Assembly: GCA_030680175.1 (NCBI GenBank)
Contig: JAUXWO010000050.1
Coordinates: 124,001-188,000 of the forward strand
From: Vicinamibacterales bacterium
GTDB taxonomy: Bacteria; Acidobacteriota; Vicinamibacteria; Vicinamibacterales; UBA2999
Direction of reading: 5' to 3'
Length of the DNA stretch: 64,000 nucleotides
The notes under the pieces are model-generated. The model saw only the letters and a program-made list of their open reading frames with translations, was not told where the DNA came from and ran no database searches. Made by a program: the position numbers and the translations under genes. This document shows positions 6,155 through 61,275 of the stretch, one piece after another. Position 1 is the stretch's first letter, and every line of letters starts with the position of its first letter.

Positions 6155-6310
6155 GGTGGGTGGTGGGTCGTGGGTAGTGGGTAGTGGGTCGTGGGTCGTG
6201 GGTCGTGGGTCGTGGGTGGTGGGTGGTGGGTCGTGGGTCGTGGGCAGTAGGTCGTGGGTGGTGGCCGTGCCCCGTCACTACCTACGACCCACGACCCACT
6301 ACCTCCCGTT
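6155..6310. repeat. GTGGGTCG tandem repeat with inverted arm between convergent genes
   Basis: The left part (6158-6265) is some fifteen copies of GTGGGTCG/GTGGGTAG. The right part (6276-6303) carries the complementary CTACCTACGACCCACGACCC sequence, so a long hairpin can form. The G-rich strand also satisfies a G3-N4 quadruplex pattern. It separates metH from the convergent aldo/keto reductase gene and may act as a bidirectional terminator. Confidence 0.7.
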
Positions 6311-22299: not shown

Positions 22300-24759
22300 A
22301 TGACGAGACGACTGATGATTCCAGCGCTGCTGGCAGTCCTTGCGGCCGCTCCCGCGTCCGCGCAGCCGGCGCCGTCCGAGCCGCGTCCGGTCCAGGTGAC
22401 CGGCGCGGTCACGACAGGCGTCGAGCAGGTCGACAACGACACGAATTCGAGCAAGCTGACGGAGTACCGTGACTTCCGCAGCGACTTCTTCCTGTCCGGC
22501 GTTCGCTTTGCGCTGGCCGCGCCCGCCAATGGGGTCTGGGCCGACTTCCGGAGCGTGAACCTCGGCCGCCGGGATCAGGGGATCGACGCGCTGGTGCGAC
22601 GCCCCGGGGCGTGGTCACTGCACGCCGCATGGAGCGCCTTGCCACACAACTTCAGCAACAAGGCACAGACCCCGTTCATCGACCGGGGCGCGGGACTCCT
22701 GACCCTGCCCGGCACGGTGCCCATCACGTTCAAGCGGCTGGCGACCGTCGCCGCCGACGCCCCGGGGGTCGTGGCGAGTGACAACCTGGTTGCGGCCTAC
22801 CAGTCGACCTCACTGCGGGCGACACCGCTCGCCACCGACAGGACCACAGGCCGCTTCGGCGCGTCGTGGTCTGGCACGGGACCCTTCACGTTCGGCCTCG
22901 TCTGGGATCGGCGTGCCGTCTCCGGTACGCGGTCGTCGTTCGGACCGATCGGCGACCGCCCGCCGCGCACGTTGAACGTTCAGATCGCCGAGCCGGTGGA
23001 CCACGCCACCAACGACGTCACCCTCTCGGTGGAGCATGCGGGCCGCCAGACACAGGCGCGCCTGGAGTACCTGTTTTCCGACTTCAGCAACGGGATCGAC
23101 ACGCTGACCTGGCAGAACGTGTTCGCGTCGCCGGCGCCGGGCGCCACGTCGGACCTCTGGGATCGGGCCGTGTCGGTGTACGGACGCCGCCCGCTCTCGC
23201 CGGACAACCAGTACCACAACGTCACGGGCACGGTGGGCCGCAACCTGCCCGCCGACAGCCGGATCACGGCGACGATCGCCGTGGGACGGCTCGAGCAGAA
23301 CCAGGCCCTGCTGCCCTACAGCTTCAACAACGACATCCTCGCCGTCCAGGCGTTACCCCGCGCCTCGGCCAATACGGAGATGGTCACGCGCCACCTCGCT
23401 GCCGACTACGTCATCAACCCGGCGCCGCGGCTGAACATGCGGGTCTGGGCGCGTCATTACGGGCTCACGAACAACACGCCCGAGAGCCAGTGGCAGTACG
23501 TGACCTCCGACACGGCAAACCTGAACGGGACCACGTCCTACAAGAACCGCCGGGTGAACCTGGCGTATGGGTACGACCGGACCACCGCAGGCGCCGACGC
23601 CACCTACCGGCTGCCGTCGCGGTCGGCCCTCACGATCGGCTACGAGCGGGAGGACATCGGCCGTGACTATCGCGAAGCGGACACGCTCGAGCAGCGGCTC
23701 ACCGCGTCCTTCCGGGCGCGACCCGTGCGATGGATGAACGTGCGTGCGCGGTACGTCTTCGGCGTGCGCGACGGAGACGGCTACAACGGGACCGTCACAC
23801 AGCAGAGCTACTGGTACGCACGGGCGGACGCCGGCACCGACAACGACAACCCCGGCTACACCTTCAGCAATCACCCCGACATGCGCCGCTACGACGTCTC
23901 CGATCGGAGGCGGCACCAGGGAGAGTTCAAGGTCGACCTGTCGCCAGGCGACCTCGTCGCCCTCTCGGGTTTCGCGCGATACCGGCGGGACGACTTCGAT
24001 TCGAGCGTGGTGTCGTCGCAGCCGCTCCTGGGATCGAGCCTCGCGGATCAGGCGGCCAGCACCCCCGGAGATCAACTCGGCTGGCTGGAGGACACGCGCC
24101 TGCGGTACGGCGTGGACCTCTTCGTCATGCCACGAGACGGCGTGACGCTGAACGCGTTTGTCGCCTACGACCTCGGCACGAGCGCCCAGCGGTCGCTCGA
24201 GTACAACGAGAACAACAAGCAGAACCCGTCGGCCGTGGCGCTCGCGGAACTGGGGCCGTGGACCCGCGCCGGGAGTCAGTGGACGGCCGACTTCGACGAC
24301 CGCACCTGGAGCGGAGGGCTGGGGGGGGCGCTGGCGCTGGTCCCCGACCGCGCGACGCTCACCCTCGACTACACCCTGTCACTCGCGGCCGTGGACATCG
24401 ACTACGGCGGCTTCGGCGTCACCAACTGGGACGGCACGCCGTTTCCGCCCAATCACCAGTTCGCGTTCTCTACGCCGCCGACGATTCGCGAGGACCTGCA
24501 CGCGTTGGGCGCCCGCGTCGAAGTGCGGCTCACGCGGGCCGTCGTCGTGCTCGCCAGCTACCGCTACGAGCGGTACGTGCTGGAGGACTGGCAGCAAGGA
24601 TCGAACTTCCCCTGGGTGGAGGAAGTCGGCAGCGAGTTCCAGCTGCGGGACACCTCACGGTCGCATCAGTGGGGCAACCGGCTCTTCAATCTCGGGACCT
24701 ACCTCGCCCCCACCTACCGCGCGCACATCGCATTCGTGGGTGTGACGACGCGGTTCTGA
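22300..24759 (+). CDS. MtrB/PioB-family outer-membrane beta-barrel
   Basis: The 819-residue protein has a signal peptide (MTRRLMIPALLAVLAAAPASAQP) and then alternating amphipathic beta-strands rich in Tyr, Arg and Asp (RLNMRVWARHYGL, RTTAGADATYRLPSRSALTI), ending in a strand with terminal Phe (AHIAFVGVTTRF), the usual barrel-assembly signal. Length and layout fit the 26- to 28-strand MtrB/PioB porins that sheath a decaheme cytochrome. The N-terminal CxxC of Shewanella MtrB is absent, as in PioB. The ATG at 22300 has AAAGGAG at 22287-22293; an ATG at 22294 directly abuts that site and is less likely. No MtrC-like surface cytochrome follows. Confidence 0.9.
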   Translation: MTRRLMIPALLAVLAAAPASAQPAPSEPRPVQVTGAVTTGVEQVDNDTNSSKLTEYRDFRSDFFLSGVRFALAAPANGVWADFRSVNLGRRDQGIDALVRRPGAWSLHAAWSALPHNFSNKAQTPFIDRGAGLLTLPGTVPITFKRLATVAADAPGVVASDNLVAAYQSTSLRATPLATDRTTGRFGASWSGTGPFTFGLVWDRRAVSGTRSSFGPIGDRPPRTLNVQIAEPVDHATNDVTLSVEHAGRQTQARLEYLFSDFSNGIDTLTWQNVFASPAPGATSDLWDRAVSVYGRRPLSPDNQYHNVTGTVGRNLPADSRITATIAVGRLEQNQALLPYSFNNDILAVQALPRASANTEMVTRHLAADYVINPAPRLNMRVWARHYGLTNNTPESQWQYVTSDTANLNGTTSYKNRRVNLAYGYDRTTAGADATYRLPSRSALTIGYEREDIGRDYREADTLEQRLTASFRARPVRWMNVRARYVFGVRDGDGYNGTVTQQSYWYARADAGTDNDNPGYTFSNHPDMRRYDVSDRRRHQGEFKVDLSPGDLVALSGFARYRRDDFDSSVVSSQPLLGSSLADQAASTPGDQLGWLEDTRLRYGVDLFVMPRDGVTLNAFVAYDLGTSAQRSLEYNENNKQNPSAVALAELGPWTRAGSQWTADFDDRTWSGGLGGALALVPDRATLTLDYTLSLAAVDIDYGGFGVTNWDGTPFPPNHQFAFSTPPTIREDLHALGARVEVRLTRAVVVLASYRYERYVLEDWQQGSNFPWVEEVGSEFQLRDTSRSHQWGNRLFNLGTYLAPTYRAHIAFVGVTTRF

Positions 24760-24915
24760 CGGGTCCGACGGGTCCGACGGGTCCGGCGGGTCCGGCGGGT
24801 CCGATGGGTCCGGCGGGTCCGCCGGGTCCGGCGGGTCCGCTTGCCCTGAGCGCCGTCGAAGGGCCTGCCCTGAGCGCAGTCGAGGGGCTTGCCCTGGGCG
24901 AAAGTCGAGGGGCGG
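24757..24915. repeat. GGGTCCGGC tandem repeat and CCCTGAGCGCAGTCGAAGGG palindromes
   Basis: Ten 9-bp GGGTCCGRC units (24760-24845) start at the stop codon of the porin gene. Three copies of an interrupted palindrome, CCCTGAGCGCAGTCGAGGGG or variants, follow (24843-24912). The second type is a common dispersed palindrome in environmental bacteria. One frame would encode collagen-like Gly-Pro-X, but there is no start signal or gene context. The block fills the gap between convergent genes. Confidence 0.75.
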
Positions 24916-31704: not shown

Positions 31705-31760
31705 CTTCAGCCTCCTGCAATCTGCAATCTGCAGTCTGCAATCTGCAATCTGCATTTCCG
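31705..31760. repeat. GCAATCTGCAATCTGCA tandem repeat
   Basis: Five or six 8-bp CAATCTGC/CAGTCTGC units lie between the M16 peptidase stop and the ettA start region. No inverted arm is visible. Confidence 0.7.
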
Positions 31761-35226: not shown

Positions 35227-36343
35227 TCCCCGCCCAGACCCCTCCCCGCCCTCCCCGCGTCGCATCCTTCACATCGACATGGACGCGTTCTATGCGTCCG
35301 TCGAACAGCGGGACAACCCGGCGCTCCGCGGGGTGCCGGTGGTCGTCGGCGGCGATCCCACCAAGCGCGGCGTCGTCGCCGCGGCCAGCTACGAAGCGCG
35401 ACGCTACGGCGTCCGCTCCGCCCTCTCGATGGCGCAGGCCGTCCGCCTCTGCCCCGCCCTCGTCATCGTCCGGCCCGACTTCCAGAAATACCGCTCCGTC
35501 TCGCAGCAGGTCTTCGCCCTCTACCGCGAGGTCACGCCGCTCGTCGAGCCCCTGTCGCTCGACGAGGCGTACCTCGACGTGACCGAGAACGCGTGGGGCG
35601 AGCCGCTCGGCGTCACCGTTGCGAAACGCCTGAAGCAGGCCATTCGCGACACGACAGGCCTCACCGCGTCGGCGGGCGTGGCGCCGAACAAGTTCCTCGC
35701 GAAGATCGCCTCCGGGTGGAAGAAGCCCGACGGGCTGACGGTGGTGGCCCCCGGACGGGTCGAGTCGTTCCTGCAGGGGTTGTCGGTGGACGCGCTGTGG
35801 GGGGTCGGCCCGCGCACCGCCGACAAGTTGCGGGCGCACGGCATCACGATGCTCCCGCACGTGCGAACCATACCCGTCGAGGACCTGCGCGGCATCGTCG
35901 GCAGCCTCGCCGACTGGCTGAAGGCGCTGGCCGACGGACGCGACGACCGGACCGTCGAGCCCAACCGGCCGGCGAAGTCGTCGGGGTCCGAATGCACCTA
36001 CGAGTCAGACCTGACGGATATGGCGCGCATCCGCACCGAGATCCAGGAGATGGCGGGCGAGGCCGCCGAGTGGCTGGCCCGGAAGGACCTCGTCGCCCGC
36101 ACCGTCGTCATCAAGGTGCGGTACAGCGACTTCACGACGGTCACGCGGAGCCACAGCGAGTCCCCGCCCACCCGGGACGTCGAGCGCCTCGCCGGCCGCG
36201 CGCTCGCGCTGCTCGAGAAGACGGAGGCCGGACGCCGGCCGGTGCGGCTGCTCGGCGTCAGCGTCCACAACCTGCAGAACACGGACGCGCCCGTCGTGCG
36301 GACGCGAGACGACGCCCCGCGCCTGCCGTTCGATGGAGACTAG
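35207..36343 (+). CDS. dinB: DNA polymerase IV (Y-family)
   Basis: The protein is an error-prone translesion polymerase. The palm has LHIDMDAFYASVEQ (metal-binding Asp), steric gate region GVPVVVGGDPTKRGVVAAASYEARRYGV and the second catalytic block SLDEAYLDV; HhH fingers (LWGVGPRTADKLRAHGI) and the little finger (about 250-370) are complete. The C-terminus DDAPRLPFDGD resembles but does not match a full beta-clamp motif. The start is unclear: family proteins begin a few residues before HIDMDAFY, but the only in-frame starts are GTG 35207, inside the right arm of the palindromic element, or ATG 35279 (MDAFYASV), which would lose the first strand. The GTG would add about 20 unusual residues. 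Confidence 0.9.
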   Translation: MSRCQTPPRPDPSPPSPRRILHIDMDAFYASVEQRDNPALRGVPVVVGGDPTKRGVVAAASYEARRYGVRSALSMAQAVRLCPALVIVRPDFQKYRSVSQQVFALYREVTPLVEPLSLDEAYLDVTENAWGEPLGVTVAKRLKQAIRDTTGLTASAGVAPNKFLAKIASGWKKPDGLTVVAPGRVESFLQGLSVDALWGVGPRTADKLRAHGITMLPHVRTIPVEDLRGIVGSLADWLKALADGRDDRTVEPNRPAKSSGSECTYESDLTDMARIRTEIQEMAGEAAEWLARKDLVARTVVIKVRYSDFTTVTRSHSESPPTRDVERLAGRALALLEKTEAGRRPVRLLGVSVHNLQNTDAPVVRTRDDAPRLPFDGD

Positions 36344-41386: not shown

Positions 41387-42064
41387 TCAGGGGATGAAGG
41401 TCGCGATCTGGTCGAGCGGCTTGCGCGAGATGTCCGGCACCTCGGCCCCCTCGGCGGGGTAGCCCACCACAAGCAGCAGGAACGGGCGTTCGTGTGAAGG
41501 GCGCTCGAGCAGCGTGTTGAGGAACCCCATCGGGCTTGGCGTGTGCGTGAGCGTGGCGAGCCCGGCACGATGGAGCGCCGCGATCAGCAGGCCCGTGGCC
41601 AGCCCGACCGATTCCACCGCGTAGTAGTGCTTCACGACGGATCCGTTCCCGCGCACGCCGTGCGCCTCCACGAAGACGGCAATCAGCCATGGCGCGACCT
41701 CGAGGAACGGCTTCGCGGCATCGGTGCCGAGCGGCGCCAGCGCCTCGAGCCACTCCTTGGGCGCGCGGTTCGCGTAGAACTCGCGCTCCTCGGCCTCCGC
41801 CGCTTCACGCAGCCGGCGCCGCAGTTCGGGGTCCCGTCCAATCGCGACGAAGTGCCATGGCTGCAGATTGGCGCCACTCGGGGCGGTGCCGGCCGTGCGG
41901 ATGGCGTCCTCGATGATCGCCCGCGGCACGTCGCGGTCCGCATAGTCGCGCACGGTACGCCGGCGCGCCATCTCTGCGGCGAACGCCGCGGCGCGCGTCC
42001 GCATCTCCGCTTCAGGGACGACGGTGAACTCGAGGGAACGGGTTTTCACTTCGCTGTTCGCCAT
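41387..42064 (-). CDS. Nitroreductase family protein
   Basis: The 225-residue protein belongs to the FMN-dependent nitroreductase fold ([34 protein letters not shown], then [23 protein letters not shown] and a C-terminal [11 protein letters not shown]). It is close to the iodotyrosine-deiodinase/BluB-like branch, and an oxidoreductase with an unknown substrate is the safe call. The ATG at 42064 lies in the TTCGCTATTCGCCATTCGC repeat, which encodes the first residues (MANSEV); a GTG at 42049 is an alternative. It converges on the ExeA-type gene with only 7 bp between the stops. Confidence 0.88.
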
Positions 42065-42125
42065 TCGCTATTCGCAATTCGCTGTTCGCTGTTCGCCATT
42101 CGCTATTCGCCATTCGCTGTTCGCT
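42053..42125. repeat. CATTCGCTATTCGC tandem repeat
   Basis: About nine 9-bp units (GCCATTCGC, TATTCGCAA, TGTTCGCTG) run from inside the nitroreductase start to the rsgA stop. No inverted arm is visible. The repeat fixes the first codons of the nitroreductase. Confidence 0.75.
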
Positions 42126-47265: not shown

Positions 47266-47979
47266 ATGCCCACGCCCTTTTCCGTCCCCCTGCGACCGAA
47301 TGCCGCAGCATCTGCGGTGCGCTACCCCGCGCCCGGTTCCGTCGCCTCGGGCGACCTGCTCATCCTCGCGCACGGCGCCGGCGCCGGGCAGCACAGCCCG
47401 TTCATGACGCGATATGCGCAGGAACTCGCGGCGCGCGGCCCCGATGTCGTCACCTTCAACTTTCCGTACATGGACGCCGGCCGCAAGGCGCCCGACCGCG
47501 CGCCGCTCCTGCAAGAGACATTCAGAGACATCATCGCCACGGTCGCGGCCCGCGACGACGCGGCGGCGACGCGCGTGTTCATCGGCGGCAAGTCGATGGG
47601 CGGACGCATGGCCACGCACCTCGCCGCCACCCCGGACCAGTGGCCCCTCGCGACGCCGCTCGCCGGCGTCGTCGTCTTCGGCTACCCGCTGCTCCCCCCA
47701 GGCGGACGCCCCGCGCGCGCCGCGCACCTGCCCCACCTCGCCGCGCCGACGCTCTTCGTCCAGGGCACGCGCGACAGCTTCGGCGATCCCGATGCGATCC
47801 GCGCCGCCACACCGGGGGTATCGGTGCTCGACATCTTGTCGGTGGAGGGGGGCGACCACTCGTTCGCCGTGCTGAAGCGCTCAGGCCGCGATCAGGACGC
47901 GGTGCATCGAGCGATCTGGGACGGCGTGGTCAGCTGGATGACTCGCCTGAAAGACCGAACGGCGGCGGCGGGGACCTAG
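47266..47979 (+). CDS. Alpha/beta hydrolase (KANL3/Tex30-type dienelactone hydrolase-like)
   Basis: The 237-residue protein has LLILAHGAGAGQHSP (oxyanion region), the nucleophile elbow GGKSMGGRMA, FVQGTRDSFGDP (acidic residue) and a final GGDHSFAVLK for the catalytic His. This GGKSMGG form is typical of the KANL3/Tex30-like family, whose substrate is unknown. No signal peptide is present. The ATG at 47266 lies in a GC-rich leader about 25 nt after TATGCT; the frame is open far upstream through the opposite gene but without family sequence. Its stop overlaps the stop of the convergent ferredoxin gene by 4 bp. Confidence 0.88.
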   Translation: MPTPFSVPLRPNAAASAVRYPAPGSVASGDLLILAHGAGAGQHSPFMTRYAQELAARGPDVVTFNFPYMDAGRKAPDRAPLLQETFRDIIATVAARDDAAATRVFIGGKSMGGRMATHLAATPDQWPLATPLAGVVVFGYPLLPPGGRPARAAHLPHLAAPTLFVQGTRDSFGDPDAIRAATPGVSVLDILSVEGGDHSFAVLKRSGRDQDAVHRAIWDGVVSWMTRLKDRTAAAGT

Positions 47980-48383
47980 CCTTCGTCAGCCTTGCGGATC
48001 TGCTGGCGCCGCTCTTCGAACCGCGATCGTGCGATCTGCCTGTGTTCGCAGTCCGCCGTGTTGACGCAGCCCTCGGCGAGCCGCAGGCGTGCGACGGGAC
48101 GGCCGGCCACGAGATGCTCGTCCACGATCTCGGCCACATCCGCGGCCGTCACCCCACCGTACCAGACGGCCTCCGGATAGACGACGACGGTGGGCCCGTG
48201 CTCGCACTGGTCGAGACATCCGGCGCGGTTGGCGCGCACGCGCCGCTGGAGGCCGCGTTCGGCCAACGCCTTCTTGAACGCCTTCTGCAGCCCATCGCCG
48301 GCAGCCGGATCACAACACCCCCGCGGGTGCCCCGGCTCCCGCTGGTTGCCGCAGACGAAGACGTGACGTTCGAAGGGGGCCAT
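47976..48383 (-). CDS. Thioredoxin-like [2Fe-2S] ferredoxin
   Basis: The 135-residue protein begins MAPFERHVFVCGNQREPGHPRGCC and continues with RANRAGCLDQCEHGPTVVVYPEAVWYGGV. The four cluster ligands (Cys11, one of the paired Cys near 23-24, and the CLDQC pair near 55-59) match the thioredoxin-like 2Fe-2S ferredoxin family. It would carry single electrons in the cytosol or regulate. The C-terminal tail (NTADCEHRQIARSRFEERRQQIRK) is charged and less typical. It is preceded by a G-rich repeat array and starts 19 bp from it. Confidence 0.9.
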   Translation of the reverse strand: MAPFERHVFVCGNQREPGHPRGCCDPAAGDGLQKAFKKALAERGLQRRVRANRAGCLDQCEHGPTVVVYPEAVWYGGVTAADVAEIVDEHLVAGRPVARLRLAEGCVNTADCEHRQIARSRFEERRQQIRKADEG

Positions 48384-48393
48384 GTCGGTGTTC

Positions 48394-48500
48394 CAGGGGA
48401 TCGGGGATCGGGGATCGGGGATTCGCTACTCGACTTCACCTGGGATTCGGAATCGAAGATCCCTGATCCCCGATCCCTGGTCCCTGAATCCCTGATCCCC
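48394..48500. repeat. GGGGATC array (four perfect G4 runs) with C-rich complementary arm
   Basis: Four GGGG runs separated by ATC (48396-48420) give a perfect 4-tetrad quadruplex motif. Beyond 48460 the opposite strand carries GATCCCCGATCCCTGGTCCC and GATCCCCC, so hairpin and quadruplex are alternatives. It separates the ferredoxin gene from the hypothetical gene upstream. Confidence 0.85.
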
Positions 48501-48509
48501 CGTCCGTCC

Positions 48510-49004
48510 TTATTCGACCGCCAGCTCCGGACGGCCCTCGAGCCCGCCCCACGTCTCCGGATCCTGCCAGAGCAGCGTCCAGAAGTACCGCGCCACATCC
48601 CCTTTCGGATAGGCTGCCGCGAGTGTCACCACGGCCGCATCGAGCATCGCCGGCTCCGGCTTCGACGGTTCCTCGGCGGTGATGAGTCCCTGCTCGTGCG
48701 GCACGCCGAGCGCGTCGAGAAACGCCCCCATCATCGGCCGCTGATGCTCGAGGTGGTACGCGACGAGCAGCCGCGCGGCCAGCAGGTCGGACACCTGGCC
48801 CAGCCCGGCCAGGTGGCGGGCCTTGCGCTCCACCGGCAGCGACATGACGCTCTTCGGACGGAACCTGATCTGGCGGGCAATCAGGGCGACGGCTTCGGCC
48901 TGCTCGAGCGCCGCCTGCTCGTCGCGCCAGAACGCGGCCGCCGCACTGGTGCGCACTTCTAAAGGCATGAGCCGCCACATACGGGCGGGACGATGGTCGG
49001 ACAT
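48510..49004 (-). CDS. Hypothetical protein, all-helical
   Basis: The 164-residue protein begins MSDHRPARMWRLMPLEVRTS and is rich in helices (RDEQAALEQAEAVALIARQIRF, VAYHLEHQRPMMGAFLDALG). I do not recognise the family and see no catalytic motif. The ATG at 49004 is chosen because TACACT ends 6 nt before it; an in-frame ATG at 49043 would add 13 residues. A 366-bp gap to gltB lies upstream on the other side. Confidence 0.6.
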   Translation of the reverse strand: MSDHRPARMWRLMPLEVRTSAAAAFWRDEQAALEQAEAVALIARQIRFRPKSVMSLPVERKARHLAGLGQVSDLLAARLLVAYHLEHQRPMMGAFLDALGVPHEQGLITAEEPSKPEPAMLDAAVVTLAAAYPKGDVARYFWTLLWQDPETWGGLEGRPELAVE

Positions 49005-49010
49005 CACACG

Positions 49011-49016
49011 AGTGTA
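49011..49016 (-). promoter_or_regulatory. TACACT six nt before a start codon
   Basis: TACACT on the minus strand ends 6 nt before ATG 49004 with no Shine-Dalgarno site between them, in the same arrangement as apaG, rsgA and typA. Confidence 0.4.
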
Positions 49017-49138
49017 GTGCAAAGTGAGCCGTTCGAATATCAACGTCCGCCGTGCGCCCTGCCCCTCTCCTTCCGCGGTGTGCGTTTTGCCTTCTGCCCT
49101 CTGCCTTCACAGATGAGTTTCCCGTGACGCTCGCGCAA

Positions 49139-49163
49139 CAAGCATGCGCGTTGGGAATGCTTG
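49139..49163. promoter_or_regulatory. 7-bp inverted repeat in the gltB leader
   Basis: CAAGCAT (49139-49145) and ATGCTTG (49157-49163) are exact complements with an 11-bp spacer, in an AT-richer stretch 208 bp before the gltB ATG. A repressor or activator site is possible; nothing identifies the protein. Confidence 0.35.
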
Positions 49164-49312
49164 ATATGTGAAGGTTCTATTTCCCTTCTGGCTCGTACGC
49201 TGGCATAAATACGCATCGGGCGTTACCACGCTCGCGAGTTCCGACAATCGACAGGAGCGGTGCCTCCCGCTTCTGCCACCTTTCCGACCGGCAGACACCA
49301 CGTCGGCACAGC

Positions 49313-49328
49313 ACACGCGCGCGCGTGT
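49313..49328. promoter_or_regulatory. 16-bp perfect palindrome in the gltB leader
   Basis: ACACGCGCGCGCGTGT is a perfect palindrome 42 bp before the gltB ATG. It could be an operator or an RNA hairpin close to the ribosome site; in GC-rich DNA such alternating purine-pyrimidine runs also arise by chance. Confidence 0.3.
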
Positions 49329-49370
49329 CTCCGCCGGAGGTGTCTGCGACCTGACGAGGAGACATACGCC

Positions 49371-52300
49371 ATGGGGGATCCCGACCAGCCGCTGACGCCC
49401 ACGACCGAGCCGGTCTATGCCGATCACGACGCCTGTGGTGTCGGATTCGTGGCCGATCTCGGCGGGCGCGCCGATCATGAATGGCTGCAGCGGGCCCTCG
49501 ACGCGCTCCGCCGGCTCACCCATCGCGGCGCCCCCAGCGACGGGCGGGGGTCGGCGGATGGCGCCGGCGTCCTCACCGCCATTCCGTGGACCCTGCTCGC
49601 GCGCGATCTGCCCAGCGCCTTCGGCGCGGCCGAAGGCGGCCGCATGGCCGGCATGTGCTTCATTCCGCCAGCCGCCGTGGCCGCCGCCCAGGCGACCATC
49701 GACGCCGCGCTGGAACAGGAGGGCTGGCGCTTCCTCACGTGGCGGCACGTGCCGGTGGACCGCACCTGCCTCGGCGAAGCCGAAGCCGCATCCGAACCGG
49801 CCATCTACCAGGTGCTCGGCCTGCACGGCGCGTCCCCGGCGCTCGACGAGGCGGCGCTCGATGCCAGCCTGTACCGCGCGCGCCTCCGCGCAGAGGCGCG
49901 ACTGCTCGCACAGGGCCTCGGCGCCGTAGCGATCACGTCGCTCTCGCTGCGCACCATCGTCTACAAGGCGCTCGTGACGCCGGCCGATCTGCCGCGCTAC
50001 TACCCCGACCTGGACGACCCGGCGTACGAGACCGCGTTCGCCGTGTTCCACCAGCGCTTCAGCACGAACACGTTTCCGCAGTGGCGTCTCGCTCAGCCCT
50101 TCCGCGTGCTGGCCCACAACGGCGAGATCAACACGGTGCTCGGCAACCGCCTCGGCGCGGCGCGCCGCCAGGCGGATCGCGCGTGCCTGCCCGATCTGCC
50201 GGACGGCATCGGCCCGCTGGTTCGTGCGAGCGGCAGCGACTCGGAGAGCCTCGACGATGCGGTGGACGCGATGCGGCAGGCGGGCTTCAGCCTCGCGCAT
50301 GCGTTTGCCCGGCTGATTCCGCGCGCGTGGGAACACGACCCGGACGTGCCGGCCGCCGAACAGGCGTTCGAACGCTACCAGGCCTGCTTCACCGAACCCT
50401 GGGAAGGCCCCGGCGGCCTGGCGTTCGCCGATGGCCGCCAGGTGGGCGCGATGCTCGACCGCAACGGCTTCCGGCCCGCGCGCGTGATCGTCACGACGAC
50501 CGGGCAAGTCTGCGTCGGGTCGGAGACGGGCATCTTCGACGTGACCGAATCCGAGGTGCGCCAGCGCAGCCGCCTCGGCCCCGGCGAGATGGCCATCGTC
50601 GACTTCGCCAGCGGCGAACTGCGCGACAACCGTGGCGTGCGCCAGGCGCTCGCGGCGGCGCAGCCGTACCGCACGTGGGTCGATCTCGCCGTGGCGCCCG
50701 TGCAGCCGTCGCCCGAGACCGCGCCGACCGTGCGTGACGAGGCGGATCTGCGCCGCCAGCAGCGGATCTTCGGCTACACCGCCGAGGAACTGGAGCTCAT
50801 CCTCCGGCCGATGGTCGATGAAGGCAAGGAGGCCGTGGGATCGATGGGCGACGACACGCCGCTCGCGATCTTCACGCCGCGCCGGCGCGTGCTGACCGAC
50901 TTCTTCCGCCAGCGCTTCGCGCAGGTGACCAACCCGCCGCTCGACCCGCTGCGCGAGTCGGTCGTGATGTCACTCGAGACGTGCTTCGGACGCCAGGGCC
51001 GCCTGCTCGCCGAATCGCCGGTCGAGGCGCGGATGGTGCTGGCGCCGACCCCCATTCTGACGGAGGCGCTCCGTGACGGGCTGCGGCAGCTGCCGCAGCG
51101 GCCGGTCGCGATTGTCAGCACGACGTACGCGATCGGCGGCGGCGAGGACGGATTCCGCGAGGGCCTCGCGCGCGTGGCCCGCGAGGCCGTCGACGCCGTC
51201 CGCGACGGGGCGGTGGTCGTGATGTTGTCGGATCGACAGGCCTCGTCGACCGAGGCGCCTCTGCCCTCGCTGCTGGCCGTGACCGCCGCGGGGCGCGCGC
51301 TCACGGAGGCGGGGCTCGGCGGGCGCGCCGGACTCGTTGCGGATACGGGCGAGGTGCGCGATGCGCATCAGGCGGCGGCGCTCCTCGCCTTTGGTGCGGC
51401 GGCCGTCTGTCCCTGGCTCGCGATCGAGACGGCGCGGGCGCTGGCCGTCAAGACCGGCATGGCGCCGGACGAGGCGGAACGCCAGTGGCGTGAGGCGGTC
51501 GAGCAGGGCCTGCTGAAGGTCCTGTCGAAGATGGGGGTCTGCACGATCGCGGGCTATCGCGGCGGGCAGCTCTTCGAAGCCGTCGGCCTGGCGCCGTCGC
51601 TCGTGGAGCGGTACTTCCCCGGCACACCCGTGGTCCCCGGCGCGCTGACGATCGACGCGCTGGCCGCGCAGGAAGTGGCGGCGCACCAGGCGGCCTGCGG
51701 CACTTCGGCGGCGCAGCTGCCGCATCCCGGCTTCCATGTGTTCCGCCGCGACGGCGACCATCACGCCTACAACCCGGCGCTCGTGCGCGAGTTCCACAAG
51801 GCGCTCGACGCCGGTCACGAGGACGCGTACCGGGGCTTCGCGGCGCTCGTGCACGGGCGGCCGGCCACGGCTGTCCGTGACCTGTTCGAGTTCCGGAGCG
51901 GTCCGGCGATCCCGATCGAGGAGGTCGAGCCGGCCGAGCGGATCGTGAGCCGCTTCTTCGCGTCGGCGATGTCGGTCGGCGCGCTCGGGCCCGAAGCCCA
52001 CGCCACGCTCGCCATGGCCATGAACCGCGTCGGCGGCCGCAGCAACAGCGGCGAGGGCGGCGAGGATCCCGCGCGCTTCGCGCGCCCGCTGACGGGCGAC
52101 TGGGCCAACAGCACGACCAAGCAGGTGGCCTCGGCGCGCTTCGGCGTGACGCCGCACTACCTGATCTCGGCGACCGAGCTGCAGATCAAGATGGCGCAGG
52201 GCTCGAAGCCCGGCGAGGGCGGCCAGCTGCCCGCGGCCAAGGTCGTCGATCACATCGCGCGGCTCCGCCATGCACAGCCGCACACGTCGCTCATCTCACC

Positions 52301-57249: not shown

Positions 57250-57465
57250 CGACTGGGAGCCGCCCCCGGAGGTGGCGGGGCGTGGGTGGAGCGCGACGTT
57301 TGTCGTCGCGCGGAGGCCAGGCCCTGCCACCCACCAGCGGCGACGGCGGGGAGCCGCCCCCCGAGGGGGCGGGGCGTGGGTGGAGCGCGACGTTTGTCGT
57401 CGCGCGGAGGCCATGCCCTGCCGCCCGCCAGCGGCGACGGCGGGGAGCCGTCCGCCCGCGGCGAC
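57250..57465. repeat. 94-bp tandem repeat with an internal GCGCGAC hairpin
   Basis: Two and a partial third copies of a 94-bp unit (GGAGCCGCCCCC, GGGCGTGGGTGGAGCGCGAC, GCGGAGGCCATGCCCTGCC). Each unit carries GCGCGAC-GTTTGTC-GTCGCGC, a 7-bp stem with a 7-nt loop, at 57291-57311 and 57385-57405. It fills the gap between the TypA stop and the DinB-like start. Confidence 0.85.
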
Positions 57466-61209: not shown

Positions 61210-61275
61210 CGGTGGACGGTGGACGGTGGACGGTGGACGGTGAACGGTGGACGGTGGACGGTGGACGGTGATGGA
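61205..61275. repeat. GGTGGAC 7-bp tandem repeat
   Basis: Eight 7-bp units, one with a substitution (GGTGAAC), run from 61211 to about 61266. They lie immediately before the zinc dehydrogenase ATG, which leaves no room for a normal leader. No inverted arm is present. Confidence 0.85.

Follow-up and report, generated by a model that had tools for sequence, protein, structure and literature searches.

A dispersed seven-base repeat, probably of the GGGNATC class, next to a ferredoxin gene in a Vicinamibacterales genome

The G-rich site between a 2Fe-2S ferredoxin gene and the gene upstream of it is, with a probability that we put at about 85%, a dispersed intergenic simple-sequence repeat of seven bases, GGGGATC accompanied by its degenerate reverse complement, which forms an imperfect palindrome and belongs to the class of GGGNATC quadruplex-forming repeats. 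The arrays have a period of seven bases and a defined unit, lie between genes, are paired in inverted orientation, recur across the genome, and are absent from the orthologous spacers seen. We regard the site as a real and well-formed member of a known repeat class, here assigned in acidobacterial relatives, and we set aside the tempting but unsupported idea of a switch for the ferredoxin gene, which is not demonstrated. Below, the window is the whole stretch of DNA that was analysed (64,000 nucleotides), G000 is its host genome, the other G labels designate genomes of relatives, and the L labels designate loci.

The element and its predicted folds

A sequence-only reading of the window had described an ideal four-tetrad quadruplex sequence, and this exact sequence is found on the plus strand at 48396-48420: GGGGATCGGGGATCGGGGATCGGGG, i.e., GGGG-ATC-GGGG-ATC-GGGG-ATC-GGGG. 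Tandem Repeats Finder reports a period-7 array of GGGGATC at 48396-48422 (3.9 copies, 100% match) and another one of GATCCCT at 48458-48499 (5.9 copies, 83%). The two arrays make an imperfect palindrome of ~106 nt in the 126-nt spacer between two genes of the minus strand, with the G array 12 nt away from the start codon of the ferredoxin gene and 87 nt away from the gene on the right. The features of the region are the following.

47976..48383, minus strand: gene of a thioredoxin-like 2Fe-2S ferredoxin (NCBIfam and PDB matches)
48396..48422, plus strand: array of GGGGATC heptamers with four GGGG tracts, 5' arm of the hairpin (sequence, repeat search, folds)
48423..48457, plus strand: loop or apical part of the hairpin, with a small GATTC/GAATC inverted repeat (sequence, folds)
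48458..48501, plus strand: degenerate array of GATCCCT/GATCCCC heptamers, complementary to the G arm (sequence, repeat search, complementarity)
48510..49043, minus strand: upstream gene in tandem, an ORF of 177 aa (found beside the ferredoxin gene in five relatives)

The identification of the neighbouring gene as a 2Fe-2S ferredoxin was borne out by matches of its product to the PDB entries 5abr (E 4.7e-23) and 1f37 (E 1.6e-22) and to the NCBIfam model NF041613 (E 3.1e-26, with 91.7 bits, below the model cut-off of 195), whereas Pfam gave a sub-threshold match only. Among the ferredoxin relatives listed, the nearest named ones are Acidobacteria MAGs. The 177-aa ORF had no match in Pfam or NCBIfam. 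The site does lie upstream of the ferredoxin gene, as had been noted, but its perfect GGGG run belongs to the strand complementary to the message. At this place the message thus has CCCC, and the G-rich arm that it does contain is degenerate, reading GGGGGATCAGGGATTCAGGG... on the minus strand, in the sense of the ferredoxin gene (48458..48501).

The spacer folds with -67.8 kcal/mol as RNA (z -3.7, 1/200 shuffles equally good) and with -32.9 kcal/mol as DNA (z -3.4, 2/200 shuffles equally good). We compared quadruplex and hairpin with ViennaRNA, allowing or disallowing quadruplexes. The G arm of the plus strand together with the loop is predicted to form a quadruplex (-39.2 versus -27.3 kcal/mol without quadruplexes), whereas the whole element is predicted to fold into a plain hairpin on both strands (-67.8 and -60.2 kcal/mol), with the same result when quadruplexes are allowed. 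The earlier suggestion that a complementary arm may capture the G arm is supported in these folds: the arm is present at 48458-48501 and is predicted in silico to exclude the quadruplex, which is favoured only for the G arm alone. Hence, in these models the two states can plausibly compete only as long as the second arm is absent. In RNA, the complete element would give a long hairpin in the message, and a quadruplex would be transient, arising ahead of the synthesis of the C arm or upon exposure of a single DNA strand.

The ferredoxin gene in relatives

A dedicated RNA switch that controls the ferredoxin gene by alternating between quadruplex and hairpin would fit with the position of the perfect motif so close to the start codon, with the stable hairpin in the spacer, and with the quadruplex predicted for the G arm on its own. 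The reading that raised this idea had proposed to compare the spacer among relatives. By tblastn, five distinct relatives were found to have the ferredoxin gene paired with that of the 177-aa ORF (two of the seven rows duplicate the records of G020 and G001), and the GGGGATC hairpin is between the two genes in none of these five orthologous pairs, whose spacers are as follows.

G020 and L160: the genes lie directly against each other
G021: short heptamers of another kind (AGAGTTC)
G024: free of heptamer arrays
G001: pieces resembling CACAGATT, with a GGGGATC array located instead beyond the far side of the 177-aa gene (read from sequence)

The analysis was extended to the 200 bp upstream of the best 80 of at least 573 confirmed ferredoxin relatives, one of which provided only 94 bp of upstream sequence. 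None of the 80 has a four-tetrad motif, and two (L185 and L215) have a period-7 array with a three-tetrad motif, which could be taken in favour of a switch. Only 3 of the 80 have the 177-aa neighbour, and most of these upstream regions are therefore not orthologous spacers. The genomes searched for a conserved hairpin upstream of the ferredoxin gene include no close congeners of the host. In G000 itself the site is not unique, since kindred repeats occur at about 15 places and GGGGATC-type repeats recur next to unrelated genes. A cis-regulatory RNA is expected to keep its structure upstream of orthologous genes, which is not what we observe, and no Rfam family matched the window at the gathering cut-offs. 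Considering also that the perfect motif does not lie on the message strand, we hold a dedicated ferredoxin switch to be highly improbable, and return to the dispersed repeat as the preferred reading.

Seven-base arrays across the genome

A search of G000 with the 18-mer GGGGATCGGGGATCGGGG gave 23 overlapping matches, spread over many contigs at the places mentioned above, and its reversed control gave 0. The 18-mer is present in 15 of the 59 genomes searched (G000 included), the reversed control in 2 of the 59. A stricter pattern, GGGNATCx3-GGG, was found in 8/297 genomes of the phylum (G000 included) and its reversed control in 7/297. The control, GGGCTAN, is again an array of G-rich heptamers, so that GGGNATC does not stand out among the units of the phylum. 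Hence, G-rich heptamer arrays in general, beyond GGGNATC alone, are spread over the phylum.

Within the window, a pattern of three GGGG tracts (loops of 1-7) has 7 matches against 1.59 expected (1/100 shuffles reaches 7), two of them at the ferredoxin spacer. One further locus of the window has a four-tetrad motif, near 35250 on the minus strand; it sits within a 16-base tandem repeat, CCAGACCCCTCCCCGC. A 781-kb sample of G000 contains 16 four-tetrad motif sites, 9 of which have GGGGATC.

A scan of 424 kb of G000 over all periods gave 41 arrays of period 7, 9 of period 8, 12 of period 9, and 0-1 arrays for each of the periods 4-6 and 10-13, while periods 14 and 21 correspond to harmonics. A first-order Markov resample gave 1 period-7 array. 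The excess of period 7 is likewise found in three relatives, with 32 arrays in 318 kb of G024, 28 in 200 kb of G026, and 17 in 200 kb of G038. Most of these arrays are intergenic (40/41 in G000, 21/32 in G024, 27/28 in G026, and 16/17 in G038), in G000 against ~14% of non-coding bases by the same gene calls. These gene calls were home-made, with approximate starts, and the ferredoxin gene, missed by the caller, was added by hand. In G024, 11 of the 32 arrays are inside called genes.

In the 781-kb sample of G000, 78 of the 425 spacers of at least 30 nt have a period-7 array, with several different units; the contigs of this sample were picked for holding the GGGGATC motif, so that the density of arrays may exceed the genome mean. 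The corresponding counts are 18/159 in G024, 18/94 in G026, and 18/87 in G038. The array threshold for the spacer counts, which use the 781-kb sample in G000, was slightly lower than in the 424-kb scan. The repeat units vary between genomes and within a single genome. In short loci from other records, leaving out one record without phylum, we found 1 period-7 array among 57 loci of other Acidobacteriota (327 kb), 4 among 19 loci of Planctomycetota (117 kb), and 1 among three loci regarded as those of close relatives (19 kb). The abundance of period-7 arrays thus depends on the lineage. Further intergenic heptamer arrays are found in the window at 6155-6244 (GTGGGTC), 31715-31754 (CTGCAAT), 42057-42117 (TTCGCTA), and 61210-61270 (CGGTGGA), the last one beginning right at a gene edge.

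In G000, a complementary arm in the same spacer, scoring above at least 38 of 40 shuffles, was detected for 32 of the 101 arrays tested, both arms of a pair being counted, with ~7 expected. One may ask whether such elements are generic hairpins that end or insulate transcription between genes and are selected as such across many spacers. Their long stems and their placement near gene ends fit with such a function, but a partner arm is detectable in only the 32 arrays just mentioned, and the site in the ferredoxin spacer has neither a T-tailed terminator-like sequence nor a T run after the stem on either strand. A scan of 47900-49400 for promoters and terminators gave 0 sites, the terminator scan being limited to loops of 3-8. 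Moreover, the two genes flanking the element share one strand and are directly adjacent in G020 and L160, a setting in which termination would be of no help. These results make a selected terminator or insulator an unlikely explanation.

The element is both palindromic and dispersed, as are REP or BIME elements, which raises the question of a mobilisation by a RAYT (Y1) transposase. Copies of such elements flank the gene of the RAYT transposase. G000 has 3 matches to Y1_Tnp above the Pfam cut-off, and the spacer at one of its own Y1 loci (L240) contains a short heptamer-like sequence below the threshold. However, none of the 20 Y1 loci that were examined, of 31 rows listed, has an over-threshold period-7 array in the 2.6-3.4 kb around it, and the units differ among spacers and species, unlike a single REP consensus. 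The absence of such arrays around the 20 loci mostly refutes RAYT mobilisation, which we now see as very unlikely.

Turnover, orientation, and known heptamer repeats

Turnover was followed at a few loci. G024 has an array of AAAAGTT directly after the stop codon of one gene, and the 260 nt that follow the orthologue of this gene are free of period-7 arrays in all four relatives (G001, G044, G048, and G020). G001 and G044 are congeners of G024 and have the same convergent neighbour by sequence; the two genes are almost contiguous in G001. The GGGGCTT array of G024 (L271, minus strand from 1429) is in frame within a gene, where it encodes a proline-rich linker, PKPQVPSPKPQAPSPKP, after a start resembling a signal peptide, and the orthologue in the congener G001 is without the array. 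This locus is informative in G001 only, the match in G048 being broken up and those in G044 and G020 weak and partial. At a second GATCCCC locus of G000 (C65:50955), a period-7 array was seen within 230 nt upstream for 0/9 best matches in relatives. The query is from a family with several copies (10 to 28 matches in each genome), and the count carries little weight, since a common gene order could not be assumed for these matches.

Judging from the period and from the degeneracy of the arrays, they would be gained and lost by period-7 slippage and by fold-back copying wherever spacers tolerate them, and this gain and loss would not be driven by selection on the ferredoxin gene. Slippage alone explains neither the polarity described below nor why many loci share the same units, and a copying or spreading step is needed.

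The class to which we assign the site was described by Rehm et al. 2015 (PMC4692102), who report quadruplex-forming GGGNATC heptamers in Xanthomonas (GGGAATC) and Nostoc (GGGGA(C/T)T). These are mainly intergenic, with a preference for four units, and lie on the antisense strand, at most 50 bp upstream of an ORF, the G-rich strand being nearer the 5' neighbouring ORF irrespective of the orientation of the ORF. Inverted pairs occur in Xanthomonas, in which stem-loop and quadruplex may compete. The quadruplexes were demonstrated by CD, potassium-dependent formation in vitro being characteristic of the class, and no regulatory role was identified. Our repeats resemble these in their tandem units (GGGGATC x3 + GGGG, 3.9 copies), in the inverted pairing and the antisense position close upstream of an ORF at the site, and in being dispersed and mainly intergenic (the 23 matches of the 18-mer, and 40/41 for arrays of any unit). 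They also follow the placement of the G-rich strand nearer the 5' neighbouring ORF, both at the site and in 14 of the 17 arrays of the GGGGATC family with an edge difference of at least 10 nt (19 arrays in total). They differ in that the quadruplex, observed in vitro in the published case, is here predicted by folding, in being found in acidobacterial relatives instead of gammaproteobacteria or cyanobacteria, and in that the same genome adds heptamer families without GGG tracts and with a similar positional polarity. One point counts against the assignment: in two species of Xanthomonas, the published repeats have mostly stayed in the spacers of the same gene pairs (PMC4692102), and the turnover that we observe, between more distant species, exceeds this stability.

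Other heptamer repeats are also comparable. Geobacter metallireducens has 49 copies of elements with four copies of a heptanucleotide, GGGACCG (PMC2700814), similarly dispersed, tandem, and G-rich, but with another unit, also within genes, and described by the authors as predicted regulatory RNA elements. The TAACTGA repeats of Beggiatoaceae and cyanobacteria (PMC4679880) are likewise intergenic direct repeats of heptamers dispersed through the genome, but have a single unit that is not G-rich and, in one genome, mostly lie upstream of start codons, within several nucleotides of them. Short tandem repeats are reported to be on average not enriched in bacterial genomes (PMC12699852); passages of this paper and of PMC4060949 contained nothing further on the GGGGATC unit. 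Among the matches listed in our literature searches, which mostly did not cover subscription journals, there was no report of heptamer arrays in Acidobacteriota, and we make no claim to a first report; these matches likewise included no experimental work on the host organism.

Within each family of units, one orientation towards the nearer gene edge tends to be preferred. Among the 95 informative arrays of G000 (111 arrays minus 3 that fit no family and 13 with an edge difference <10 nt, several of the remaining ones sharing a spacer), 75 follow the majority of their family, against a simulated mean of 56.9 (sd 2.9, 0/20,000 simulations as high). Since the reference orientation of each family was chosen after viewing the data, the majorities were summed over families and set against simulated coin flips. 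When one array per spacer was kept, using single-orientation spacers only, 55/69 follow the majority (0/20,000 simulations as high), and the families without GGG tracts (TCGGCTA, TTCGCTG, and ATTGCAG) do so in 35 of 45 arrays (18/20,000 simulations as high). The polarity is uneven by family, with 13/19 for TCGGCTA in G000, and with 9/9, 8/12, and 4/5 in the families of G026, 3/4, 5/6, and 2/2 in those of G024, and 3/7, 4/9, and 2/2 in those of G038, where the two larger families have no trend. Given this lack of trend, the home-made gene calls, and the post hoc orientations, we regard the polarity as only suggestive. The modest new point suggested by these data is that the period, and less firmly the polarity, are common to units that are unable to form four-tetrad quadruplexes.

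This leads to a tentative and rather doubtful proposal, namely that, in the present acidobacterial lineage, the process generating or spreading the arrays acts on a period and an orientation and not on one sequence, the quadruplex being a by-product of one unit. Unrelated units (GGGGATC, GTGGGTA, TTCGCTG, TCGGCTA, ATTGCAG, and others) would then fill intergenic spacers, each preferring one orientation relative to the closest gene edge and frequently accompanied by a reverse-complement arm. If so, the placement rule published for G-rich repeats would be explained by something other than quadruplex formation, e.g., a hairpin-primed copying inward from gene edges. A polarity that holds independently of the unit would bear on the question of placement left by the 2015 work, pointing to the way in which the arrays are produced, not to the quadruplex.

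Other and composite repeats were also noticed. At 57255-57458 of the window, a unit of 94 bp is present in 2.2 tandem copies (93% match) between called genes, and at 24758-24913 a nine-base GACGGGTCC array is beside a 24-base GCTTGCCCTGAGCGCAGTCGAGGG array. On the same contig before the window (G000 C62:121807-122054), we found a nested spacer in which nine-base arms of the CACGAAGG type surround a palindrome of the GGCGGAGGC type. A heptamer hairpin of GTGGGTA/TACCCAC also lies inside, as if elements had been inserted into one another.
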